From the NCBI GenBank assembly GCA_024195585.1, contig SWBL01000055.1, positions 62,001-126,000 on the forward strand: a stretch of 64,000 nucleotides of DNA, in the 5' to 3' direction. Every line of letters starts with the position of its first letter. The stretch's first letter is position 1. Shown here in pieces: positions 52,301 through 56,935 of this stretch. A program made the position numbers and the translations under genes. A model generated the notes under the pieces. The model did not search any database. It worked only from the letters and a program-made list of their open reading frames with translations, and was not told where the DNA came from. This DNA is from Aureobasidium sp. EXF-3400. Taxonomy: Eukaryota > Ascomycota > Dothideomycetes > Dothideales > Saccotheciaceae.

Positions 52301-53170
52301 ATGTCCAATCCCACCGGAACACCTATCACCCTCCCAAACGCAATACAACACGACCTCACAAACCCCTCAACCGGCCTCAACTACCGCATCCAAATCTCCT
52401 GGCCCTTGAACTGGGACCGCACAAAACAGCTCCGAGACTCCAAGATCCCAGTCATCTATATCCTAGATGGCAATGCTCTATTCCTCACTGCAACTGAAAT
52501 CCTATGGCGAAGCTACAGCAATAGCTTCTATCAAGGTGGTGGCATTGTAGTGGGCATAGGATATCAAAATGTTCCTACGGAAAGTGGGAGTCTGTATAGC
52601 AGCCAGAGGAATATGGATCTGACGTTGAGTGAGCATGAGGTACATGCTGGATTGGGTGGTGCAGATACTTTTCTCGAATTCATTGGTCAGGAAGTGAGAC
52701 CTTTGGCGAGGAAGCAATTCGCGGACATCAGTATTGGCAAGGAAGCTATTTTCGGGCACTCGTTTGGAGGATTGTGTGTTTTGCATGCTTTGTTCAGCAA
52801 ACAGGGAGGTGCGTTCGATGCATACTTTGCAGCCAGTCCTTCGATATGGTGGGATTCGAAGATCGTCGAAGAAGGCAAGGAGTTCTGCAGCCGCGAAGGG
52901 TCAGAGATGGAGTGTTCTTTACAACTGTCCTATGGATCTCTGGAGGCCAAGCCGAAACAACATCACTCGGAATCGGATATCGAATTTGAGGAGAGAGGAA
53001 AGCTCTGTGCAGAACGCAAGATGGGAGAGAATGCTGTTGCGATGGAGAAGCTGCTGCAAGAAAGCAAGAAGCTGAAGAATTTGTCCATTGTCGAGTTCGA
53101 AGATGAGGATCATTGCACCGTCACGACTCCCGCGTTGCTCAGGGCCTTGAGCACGTTTCTGGACCACTGA
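52301..53170 (+). CDS. Alpha/beta-hydrolase esterase, IroE/Fes-like
   Basis: Single-exon gene, 289 aa, of the putative esterase family (PF00756 type) with members that cleave siderophore esters. The nucleophile elbow is GHSFGG with S154. YILDGNALF (about 53-61) precedes it, as in IroE-like enzymes. YFAASPSIWWD follows it, a block shared by this subgroup. The likely catalytic His is H271 in EDEDHCT. There is no signal peptide, so it is probably cytosolic. Fungal homologues include enzymes suspected to hydrolyse siderophores after uptake; that role is inference, and no siderophore gene lies nearby. It converges on the cysteine-rich gene with 285 bp between. Confidence 0.85.
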   Translation: MSNPTGTPITLPNAIQHDLTNPSTGLNYRIQISWPLNWDRTKQLRDSKIPVIYILDGNALFLTATEILWRSYSNSFYQGGGIVVGIGYQNVPTESGSLYSSQRNMDLTLSEHEVHAGLGGADTFLEFIGQEVRPLARKQFADISIGKEAIFGHSFGGLCVLHALFSKQGGAFDAYFAASPSIWWDSKIVEEGKEFCSREGSEMECSLQLSYGSLEAKPKQHHSESDIEFEERGKLCAERKMGENAVAMEKLLQESKKLKNLSIVEFEDEDHCTVTTPALLRALSTFLDH

Positions 53171-53345
53171 AAACTGTTGGATATCCTTCTGACTGCATTC
53201 CCTGTCAGAGGTCTCCTTCCCGTCTGCTAAGTCTACGACTCCTGCGCTTCTTTCACAAAGGTTCAGAGCGACGTCCTCGCTATGAAAATGCAGAAAAGTT
53301 TCCTGACCAGAGACGTATCCACAGAAGGTCCATGGGTTGTTGTCT

Positions 53346-53387
53346 CTCGATGGATACTATTCTATTTCCTAGAAGTATTGTGCATTT
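53346..53387 (+). repeat. Copy B of the short dispersed repeat
   Basis: Same paired words (ctcgatggatact, 19 nt, ttgtgcattt) as at 33671-33712. It sits between the esterase and the cysteine-rich gene. Confidence 0.5.
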
Positions 53388-53455
53388 TTATGGCTATATG
53401 CGTTATATACCTTGGCACGCAGAGGAGATGCCTTTGAGATGGCACAAGATCCCTT

Positions 53456-55027
53456 TTAGTCTCTCAACCATTGACCAGACGGATCCGCATCTTCACCTGA
53501 TCCGATGTCGAAGCACCCACATGAGCATACCTCATCATGAGATCGCATCAAGAAATCAATCATGTGCCTGGTTATCCTTTTGTTCAGATGATACCAGCTC
53601 ACTCGGCATCCACCTGGTCCTCCGGGTTTCCGCCAGGTCTGGAAGTCGCATGCGCATCTGTTGTAGTTTGTCGATCGATGACCCCTCATGACGGAAGTAA
53701 TTTCCATGCAAACCTCTCGGATGATTTGCTCGTTCCTTCCCTTGCGAGGCTTCATCTTGCAGGTAAAGAAGAAATCTGGTCGACCATCGGATTGTCGCTC
53801 GCTGACACCGTACTGATGCCAGATGTCGTCGCCATGCTTGACCATTCGCGTCCAGTAGGAATCTATTGAGCTGGCCCCTGCAGCAAATTCCCACGCTTGA
53901 TCCGGAGTGTCCCTTTGTATGTCGAGCTCCCGATGCCTGGCTTGCCTCTTTGTTCGTCTGCGAGGCTGTGGAGTTCCGGAAGTATCGTCGACGATGGGTG
54001 TTCCAAATGCGTCAATGTGAAAGCACCTGCACGAACAAGCCTCATCATGCCTCCTCATCTGATGGAGGAAGAGAGCGCGCGACGAACTGAATATGCTAGC
54101 CGGGCATCCGGTCCGCTTCCCTTCGACATGCCGGAAGTCACAGACACTGCATTCTGCATTTTTGGCAGTACGGTGCAATTTCAATGCCAAAGCCACGTAC
54201 TTGCAAATCTCTGTGACATCGTATTGAGCATAGCCTGCTCGCGGCATCATTTTGCAGGTGAACAAGAGATCTGGTACCTCGCCAGAGCGGCAACCTCCCG
54301 GATTCATGTTGATTCCACATTGGAGTTGGAATCCACCGCGTTTTTCGATTGTGCGAAACCAGTAGAACTGACCCTGTTGGACCTCCGACTTCCATGCTGG
54401 TTCGAATGAGCGGGATTGGGATACCCCAGTCCCCCGTGGAGTGCCTCCAAAGGTCGTAGGCGTGGAAAGTTCTGGGTGTGGTAGAAAGTGGACATCGAAG
54501 CATTTACACGAACAGGCCAAATCATGTCGGGCCATAGAATACCTGAGTTGATGGCCAGAAATGCTCGGTACGCAACTACGTCCACCGGTCTGTACGTGCT
54601 GTACCGCGCAATCTAGACAGTCGCAACGATGGACTTTCAGATCCATAACAGTACCTTCACAGAGTGTTCTGATGGCTTCCTCGTTATACCCCTCGCGAGG
54701 CTTCATACCGCAGGTGAAGAAGGCTCTCCCATTTCCAGCCCAAGGAATGGCGTTGTTTCTCTCGAAGCTGTATTGATACCAGATTTGACCGCGTCGTTTG
54801 ACGATACGGGACCAAGAACCTTGGTTGTGATTTGGTATCCATTCACCTACGTAGGATTCGGTATCTAGGGTGGAATATGGTGGCGGTAGTTGAGTGTTGG
54901 CGTTATCCTGAGATGGGATATCGCGCGAATGTGAATTGCTAGTTGGCTCGTATGCAGGAGGATTCCCTTGATGATTGCAACAGCATGGCTGAGATGCAGT
55001 AAAACCGGTATTGTTGTTGAGGTCCAT
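53456..55027 (-). CDS. Unrecognised protein with three copies of a Cys/His module
   Basis: Single-exon gene, 523 aa, starting at the ATG at 55027. Residues 1-65 are Asn/Pro/Ser-rich, with CCC near 15. Three copies of a module of about 110-120 residues follow, at about 71-179, 220-338 and 390-508. Each has a W-x-R start (SWSRIVKRRG, YWFRTIEKRG, YWTRMVKHGD). Each then has FTC-x-M-x-PR-x-G (FFTCGMKPREG, LFTCKMMPRAG, FFTCKMKPRKG), a lone Cys in a helix, a C-x(1-2)-C pair, another Cys, and an end block HD-x-x-CSC-x-CF (RHDLACSCKCF, RHDEACSCRCF, SHDEVCSCGCF). The eight conserved Cys plus His per module suggest a zinc-binding or disulfide-rich fold. I know no family with this pattern. No signal peptide or membrane helix is seen, so an intracellular metal-binding role is the better guess. 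Confidence 0.8.
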   Translation of the reverse strand: MDLNNNTGFTASQPCCCNHQGNPPAYEPTSNSHSRDIPSQDNANTQLPPPYSTLDTESYVGEWIPNHNQGSWSRIVKRRGQIWYQYSFERNNAIPWAGNGRAFFTCGMKPREGYNEEAIRTLCEGTVMDLKVHRCDCLDCAVQHVQTGGRSCVPSISGHQLRYSMARHDLACSCKCFDVHFLPHPELSTPTTFGGTPRGTGVSQSRSFEPAWKSEVQQGQFYWFRTIEKRGGFQLQCGINMNPGGCRSGEVPDLLFTCKMMPRAGYAQYDVTEICKYVALALKLHRTAKNAECSVCDFRHVEGKRTGCPASIFSSSRALFLHQMRRHDEACSCRCFHIDAFGTPIVDDTSGTPQPRRRTKRQARHRELDIQRDTPDQAWEFAAGASSIDSYWTRMVKHGDDIWHQYGVSERQSDGRPDFFFTCKMKPRKGRNEQIIREVCMEITSVMRGHRSTNYNRCACDFQTWRKPGGPGGCRVSWYHLNKRITRHMIDFLMRSHDEVCSCGCFDIGSGEDADPSGQWLRD

Positions 55028-55631
55028 ATCGTTGTGTTGCAAATGTTCACTTGGAAGAATGTGTTCGGGAAGAGGAGAAGTCGAGGTTTGGAAGATGCAG
55101 AAGATATGTCATGTATCTATGCAGTGAGCAAGTTTGAGTGTAGTAGTTCGGTTCAGTCGGGATTCAGAGTTTATGCCACGTGGGTAATGGTCACCAGAGG
55201 TTAGAGCTCCCAATAGCTTCCAGAGCAATAACAGATTGTGAACAGGCACCAGTGCTGCGAGAGTCTTGATCCATCCGCTGAGAGCCTTTGGATATGTCAA
55301 TCTCTAGATTATCTCACCGGAGGTAACGTTCCTGAACACACATTTGTGCATTGCGATGGCACCAGTCACACCATGTCAGTGCTGAGAGATCTAGTAGAGT
55401 ACTATACCAGGCAGAGGACGCTGCTTCCTCGTAGCAGACCCCGAGAGGAGATCAGCATCGCAATGCAAAAAGGTGTCCCAAAGTTGTTGCCATCCGCTGA
55501 GAGCCCCTTTTTTCCACCACGGATTTTGGGCTCTCACTGGAGGCATGCAGGAATAGAAAACATCGTGCATTTTTACAAGCACATTAACATGAGCAAGTGC
55601 AGAAGAGATGAAGCATACTACTGTCATACGG
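55028..55631. other. Promoter side of the cysteine-rich gene and 3' flank of Hus1
   Basis: About 600 bp between two minus-strand genes. A CACGTG E-box lies at 55178, some 150 bp upstream of the cysteine-rich start codon. A partial third copy of the dispersed repeat is at 55554-55576. No coding frame is convincing. Confidence 0.45.
55554..55576 (+). repeat. Partial copy C of the short dispersed repeat
   Basis: tagaaaacatcgtgcatttttac resembles the right half of copy B (tagaagtattgtgcattttta). Copies B and C lie on either side of the cysteine-rich gene. The match is short and may be chance. Confidence 0.3.
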
Positions 55632-56935
55632 CTATTGACTGTACGAACTGATATAGTATGTAATCACCGACTCTGGCCCAGCCGCATCCTCATTCGTGAG
55701 ATAGACGTATAATATCAGTGCATGCTCATCGCAAAAGCCTGAGAAGTGTCAACATAAAGCTTCATGAGCAATGAGGATGGAACTTACAGGCGATAACTCT
55801 TCCGCCCACTCTTCCGATACCCAATACCTTGCCCCAGTCCTTGCCATCCAATCTCACCACTGCCCAGCCTTCGTCACTGATACCCTCGGGATCACCTCGT
55901 GTCCGCATTCGAGTACTTGGGTGTCGTGCGATACCTTCTTCACCGCCTTCAATCGTCTGAGGATCCAACTCTGGGTTACTCAGCCCTGTCCACCTTGAGC
56001 TGATGTCCATGGCGTCAGTCTTCAGTCTCAGTCTCAAGCATCCATGCATGTTTGCGCTCAACTCCAGTTTTGGTGTCCGTGCTGTGTTACCTCGAAAGCC
56101 TGTTGAACCATTTGGCGTTTTTGTGCTCGAGACGGCGAGCTTGGTGAAGCGATCGGAGATGGATTTGAGCTGTAGTAGAGGTGGGAGCGCGATGTGAACG
56201 TCCGGCTCTCTAGACCGGGGTTCATTGAGGCCCGATACGACGGCCGGCGAAAGGACTTTGATGGGTATGTCTTGGGTAATGATGGTTTCTCTGTTCGGGC
56301 GATCGTAGGCAGGCTCGTCGACCTCGTCGGTGGGGAACAGGTTGCCGTACTCGTCGCCTGGAGGCAAGCCTGGGTTGTAACCATACTCGTCCTGTGCGGC
56401 GCTTTGCGTTACCGGTTTTGGTGCGCCGGCGAATATGGCTGTTGTGATTGTCAAGGAAAGAAGTGGGATGTTGTTTTTCTTGGTCAGGCGGATCGATGCA
56501 TGGCTGGCATTCTGAGCAGACTTCAGCGCTCGGTGGAGGTTCTGTAATGGCACTTCGAGGTTGATCGTATTGTTTTCTGCTGCAGACTGGATGGTGTATG
56601 TTTCGAATATTTGATCCTTCTCAGGATTAGTCTCATGCAACGCATGGTCACATCGCAGAGGATATACTGACAATCTCAAGTGCACTAGTTAGAGGTCAGA
56701 TTCAAAGGAGAAGACTTTTTGTGATCGCTAGACTTACGCCCATACTGATGAGCCTTGATCAGGGATTACAGTGAAACGGACATCTTCATTGCTCAATTTG
56801 ACCCATGCGACTGGACCCAATGATGCAAGTGAAGCTGTCAATTCTGGTAAAACATCAGCACTTGTTATTTCCTGCGCGTTGTCTAATCTTACTTGTAAAG
56901 ACATTATTGTTCTGTATATCTGCTCGGAAACGCAT
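55632..56935 (-). CDS. HUS1: Checkpoint clamp subunit Hus1
   Basis: Subunit of the Rad9-Rad1-Hus1 ring that is loaded at DNA damage and activates the checkpoint kinase. My exon map on the minus strand is 56935-56893, 56843-56738, 56684-56672, 56616-55788 and 55738-55632, giving 365 aa. Exon 1 (43 nt) gives MRFRADIQNNNVFT, the family N terminus. Exon 2 gives KLTASLASLGPVAWVKLS and FTVIPDQGSSVWA. Exon 3 is a 13-nt microexon supplying ALEI, so the join reads VWAALEIDQIFETYTIQSAA, close to other Hus1 proteins. Exon 4 has EVPLQNLHRALKSAQNAS and KNNIPLLSLTI. Exon 5 gives CFCDEHALILYVYLTNED and ends SYSQ, the usual last strands. Introns are 49, 53, 55 and 49 nt. Each junction is phase-consistent; the microexon is the one that most needs cDNA. 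Confidence 0.9.

Follow-up and report, generated by a model that had tools for sequence, protein, structure and literature searches.

In yeast, arrestin and non-arrestin adaptors carrying PY motifs recruit the ubiquitin ligase Rsp5, as set out in PMC9105457. The same paper describes the alpha-arrestins (ART family) as PY-motif ligase adaptors, and Bsd2 (a membrane protein), Tre1/2, Ear1, Ssh4, Sna3 and others as carriers of PY motifs that connect Rsp5 with its cargo. According to PMC5095921, a PPxY motif mediates the binding of LITAF to ITCH/NEDD4 ligases, and the recombinant protein carries about 0.8-1 zinc. Here a gene is described from a 64,000 nucleotide stretch of Aureobasidium sp. EXF-3400 DNA (contig SWBL01000055.1, positions 62,001 to 126,000, forward strand; the window), which encodes an N-terminal tail with two PPxY motifs and three copies of a domain with ten conserved Cys/His positions. 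It is tentatively read as a lineage-specific PY-motif adaptor for a Rsp5/HulA-type ligase, with a new, probably zinc-stapled Cys/His domain.

The alpha-arrestins differ from the window protein by their arrestin domain; no arrestin row was obtained in Pfam scans of the whole protein and of 31 modules. Other non-arrestin Rsp5 adaptors besides Bsd2 are membrane proteins too, and to our knowledge none of the known ones has this domain. LITAF and CDIP1 (SIMPLE; zf-LITAF-like, PF10601) resemble the window protein in joining an N-terminal PPxY tail to a Cys/His domain. The Cys domain of LITAF, however, encloses a hydrophobic stretch of about 22 residues, and the window protein contains none (maximum KD19 0.57); no PF10601 row was obtained for the window protein or the 31 modules, and the modules described here are 126-138 amino acids long and occur in up to three copies. 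LITAF-like matches (PF10601) were found at two other loci in the genome.

The gene consists of one open reading frame of 523 amino acids plus stop on the reverse strand (53456..55027), in which an intron is not required; the proposed intron-free structure fits this frame and a database protein of equal length, which is 90% identical. Module boundaries were set by profiles and place module 1 at amino acids 57-182 (54482..54859), module 2 at 206-341 (54005..54412) and module 3 at 373-510 (53498..53911), all on the reverse strand. All three copies have every anchor that the original prediction named, namely W-x-R (W72, W223, W392), FTC-x-M-x-PR-x-G (C106, C258, C423), a lone Cys (C123, C275, C440), a C-x(1-2)-C pair (C137/C140, C293/C296, C458/C460), a further Cys (C152, C308, C474) and an HD-x-x-CSC-x-CF ending (H168, C172, C174, C176; H327, C331, C333, C335; H497, C501, C503, C505). 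Pairwise identity among the modules is 32-36%. Profiles built from two modules recognised the third with 71.5, 79.6 and 83.1 bits (modules 1, 2 and 3), against best scores of 11.8, 8.4 and 9.3 bits in 2,000 shuffles each. A profile of all three modules gave 34-160 bits with all ten paralogues tested from the same genome (best of 5,000 shuffles, 11.9 bits); these had previously been found by similarity, and an eleventh, on contig C187, lay outside the test. Since both sets of scores lie far above the shuffles, the repeat is no accident.

Each module carries eight conserved Cys and two conserved His, which amounts to 30 ligand-type residues in the protein. The predicted count of eight Cys stood, and that of a single His did not: a second His, in an HR pair (H133, H285, H450), had been missed. 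In an alignment of 64 full modules (numbered here by module 3), the positions of C423, H450 and C474 were kept throughout and those of C440, C458 and C460 in 63. P0028 stops right at its Cys aligned to C474, which may be a chance match, before the last four positions; the 63 modules that extend so far all keep H497, C501 and C503, and 59 have Cys at C505. This last residue is Ala in four of the 16 modules of the genome, namely those on contigs C65 and C208, and is thus unlikely to be an obligatory ligand; the claim that all anchors are kept holds for the window copies and fails at this position in the family. Anchors other than ligands are conserved as well (W379 in 63 of 64 modules, R451 in 59 of 64, D498 in 61 of 63, F506 in 63 of 63). 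Judged on sequence alone, the module thus has the conserved Cys/His ligands of a zinc domain and likely binds metal.

Database libraries gave no established relative of the module. No Pfam model reached its cut-off with the whole protein (best zf-C2H2_ZN142, 20.6 bits against 27) or with the window modules (best the same family, PF23612, with module 2, 24.3 bits against 27). Likeness to this family is limited to a stretch of 16 residues (amino acids 313-328 of module 2), and a further weak row for module 2 was zf-CCCH_7 (14 bits against a cut-off of 25). Among the 31 modules, five Pfam families were hit by one member each, the best at E 2.8e-05 (zf-C2H2_ZN142, one of 31) and the others at E ≥0.03. 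The bacterial and archaeal models of NCBIfam gave a best E of only 0.082. The PDB gave no sequence match, and neither of two AlphaFold models found a similar fold there at E 0.001. Novelty of the domain is thus well supported within the libraries searched, in line with the claim that it lies outside described families. A far-diverged known zinc- or nucleic-acid-binding fold overlooked by these searches, for example of the PUR/PC4/whirly kind, is a distinctly unlikely explanation. PUR/PC4/whirly proteins have a b-b-b-b-a arrangement, and weak Foldseek rows with the first model, at E 3.1-7.6 and a TM by query of 0.21-0.30, include PURA, MoSub1 and a guide-RNA-binding protein; the two weak Pfam rows of module 2 are zinc fingers.

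Structure prediction, also proposed originally, yielded a confident fold for module 3 with the 31-module alignment (predicted local distance difference test score, pLDDT, 86.7; predicted template modelling score, pTM, 0.82). This first model has strands at 8-10, 19-26, 29-36 and 47-51 and helices at 61-80, 90-94 and 105-128. The full paralogue on contig C294, modelled with 17 single-module sequences (pLDDT 74.9, pTM 0.69), returned the identical b-b-b-b-a-a-a order from a different query protein. Judging by this order of elements, two sites may lie at opposite ends of the hairpin formed by the long helices; site one would comprise H450, C458, C460 and C474, and site two C423 and/or C440 with H497, C501 and C503. 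Each of the three domain copies, four strands and then helices, would be held by these Cys and His, probably zinc-bound. That the Cys/His clusters serve instead as a metal buffer or redox switch, storing or sensing metal or oxidants with the fold secondary, would suit the 30 ligand-type residues in a single protein and is highly unlikely in view of the confident mixed alpha/beta model and the conserved W, HR, HD and F anchors; metallothioneins, in contrast, are unstructured.

The module belongs to a family that the original prediction had missed. The genome (53,448,430 bases, 717 contigs) was searched with three family members as queries; the best candidates were scored, so that genome counts are lower bounds. 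At least 12 family genes with together 16 full modules were found: the window gene, those on C187, C272, C310, C294 and C189, two each on C65 and C208, and those on C442 and C232, for which a start could not be assigned. The gene on C272 has three modules, as in the window gene. Database searches (12, 16 and 20 rows), which require common five-residue words and give a lower bound on the family range, returned 43 distinct proteins. Homologues in other fungi had been named as support; the only named species among the matches is Aureobasidium melanogenum (P0023 and P0038), and P0038 is 98% identical to the own-genome C208b across 173 amino acids. Eight long three-module proteins (P0001-P0008) are 55-90% identical. 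Module number varies: P0009 and P0010 have two, and P0020 and P0022 have one, so that single-module homologues, also sought originally, exist. The end stretch of P0011 is presumably a sequencing-adapter artefact, which makes its length meaningless.

A tree calculated from 60 modules set modules 1, 2 and 3 of the three-module proteins, each with shorter kin, apart in clades of their own (10, 13 and 15 rows; support 100/99, 100/99 and 99/97); several deeper forks are weak. Because the positions fall in separate clades, the triplicate is probably older than the sampled orthologues, each position having been maintained without homogenisation. The three modules of C272 lie outside these clades.

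Contig C187 carries a homoeologous copy of the region (78-87% DNA identity on either side of the gene), in which the gene has a single module that the tree puts next to the clade of module 3 (99/79 support, slightly below the star of the tool). Module 3 and its homoeologue share 53% of their amino acids, with dN 0.39 and dS 1.22 (NG86), which agrees with the purifying selection originally claimed and supports fast but constrained evolution of module 3. Decay of the gene, or a spurious gene, has only the slightest probability and is already disfavoured: the 53% identity is low against 93% for the first 180 amino acids of a neighbouring transporter-like open reading frame, whereas the excess of dS over dN and the long three-module proteins P0001-P0008 argue against it. 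Contigs C310 and C294 also pair (77.5-87.3% DNA identity), and WW, HECT and LITAF-like matches fell on contig pairs with near-equal score (paired by score, not aligned). The genome looks as if hybrid or duplicated, with two subgenomes. For A. melanogenum, highly heterozygous hybrid diploids, termed diploid above 46 Mbp and with heterozygous single nucleotide polymorphism densities of 0.74-2.58%, are reported in PMC9535773. Divergence here far exceeds these densities.

The N-terminal tail of the window protein (amino acids 1-56, 54860..55027, reverse strand) was found by motif scan to carry both PPxY motifs, PPAY (amino acids 23-26, 54950..54961) and PPPY (amino acids 48-51, 54875..54886). The equivalent tail of the C294 paralogue has block-mean pLDDT values of 41-47, and the window tail is taken as flexible by this equivalence. 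With starts set at the first plausible Met, PPxY tails are present in seven of the ten own-genome members with an assignable start (window gene, C187, C310, C294, C189, C208a and C65b). Of the other 25 window open reading frames of at least 150 amino acids (26 in all), a single frame contains PPxY at any position, and no frame has it within its first 110 amino acids; the contrast of 7/10 with 0/25 gives a Fisher p of 1.8e-5, in which the members are related and some frames may be non-genes. Among the nine long three-module proteins (window, P0001-P0008), both motifs are kept in seven and one in two.

On the ligase side, a stretch of about 600 bases on contig C104, and another on C223, holds three WW matches with HECT matches alongside, which is the layout of Rsp5/HulA; this pair holds six of the 22 WW matches in the genome. 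Two features of a PY adaptor were thus found, namely a PY motif in a flexible region and a WW-HECT ligase within the same genome. In addition, at most about 800 bases separate the paralogue on C189 (L009, C189:5500-8500) from a HECT ligase match (C189:8145-9176), possibly by coincidence.

Two subfamilies keep the module without PPxY. MG[QH]A[NI], which we assume to resemble a myristoylation signal, occurs in ten of the 15 proteins P0029-P0043 (P0029, P0030, P0032-P0038 and P0040; preceded by an upstream Met in P0033 and P0036) and in the own-genome C65a and C208b. This MGQAN-type subfamily comprises L010, L013, P0029, P0030, P0032-P0038, P0040 and P0043, the last a fragment without its start; a C-terminal motif NIF[KE]G-x-x-R was seen in eight of its 11 database proteins, not in P0034, P0037 and P0040. 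A C-terminal hydrophobic stretch (KD19 ≥2.39) was found in P0031, P0039, P0041, P0042 and the own-genome C232; L012 with these four database proteins forms a hydrophobic-stretch subfamily that appears tail-anchor-like. Three alternative possible attachments of one domain suggest that it may work at membranes.

A PPxY tail that serves some other WW protein, or acts as bait controlling turnover of the protein itself, with modules that for example scaffold proteins, is an unlikely alternative built on the same domain. It would accommodate both subfamilies without PPxY and the 16 WW matches outside the C104/C223 pair; dual [PL]PxY motifs, which are typical of ligase adaptors, are nevertheless kept even in the single-module homoeologue on C187 (as LPEY and PPQY). 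The adaptor role, a reasoned guess from these sequence features, would place the window protein inside the cell, in a fungal family restricted to its lineage; WW domains would be bound by the flexible tail, with a Rsp5/HulA (NEDD4-type) ubiquitin ligase as their likeliest source, and the modules may bind cargo and so deliver it to the ligase. Several points weigh against this role. Other WW proteins exist, the 16 remaining WW matches lying on contigs without a listed HECT match. PPxY is absent from C272 (three modules), C65a and C208b, and the motif is short enough to arise by chance in 0.8-5.3% of shuffled own-genome PPxY-bearing tails. Hydrophobic segments are absent from the window protein, and no feature identifies a cargo. 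Furthermore, the two AlphaFold runs share 16 of the 17 sequences used for the second, so that they differ in query and not in data, which slightly reduces confidence. Overall, the observation behind the original prediction was confirmed and its interpretation partly supported; it had not covered the second conserved His, the two PPxY motifs, the family of paralogues or the homoeologue with one module.

A short dispersed repeat had been placed on both sides of the gene. On the 3′ side this held: a repeat directly adjoins the gene (about 53215-53430, no strand assigned), 70-81% alike at 37 or more places in the genome (37 of 43 listed matches fall there; 39 of 106 candidates scored, a lower bound). 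The 5′ flank (55060-55760) gave three matches, namely itself, the homoeologous contig and one of 102 bases on C245, which did not bear out the claim. This flank has a 21 nucleotide inverted repeat (55338-55358 / 55456-55476; 90% complementary, 97 nucleotides apart), the second arm of which lies within the stretch common to C245. An esterase-like open reading frame, judged by look, adjoins the gene (52301-53170) and may be one-sided, since C187 matches only about its last 73 bases.

The fungal catalogue would gain a domain whose fold is predicted confidently and for which no solved relative was found, and Rsp5/HulA would gain, if the adaptor reading is right, a new class of adaptor. A wider view, itself unlikely, is that a group of black yeasts has made a new metal-stapled fold into rapidly diversifying, interchangeable cargo receptors, attached to a NEDD4-type ligase or to membranes by a PY motif, a myristoyl-like start or a hydrophobic tail; gain and loss of modules would tune the range of cargo. 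Homoeologous loci with three modules and with one, diverging fast, offer a natural experiment on such gain and loss.
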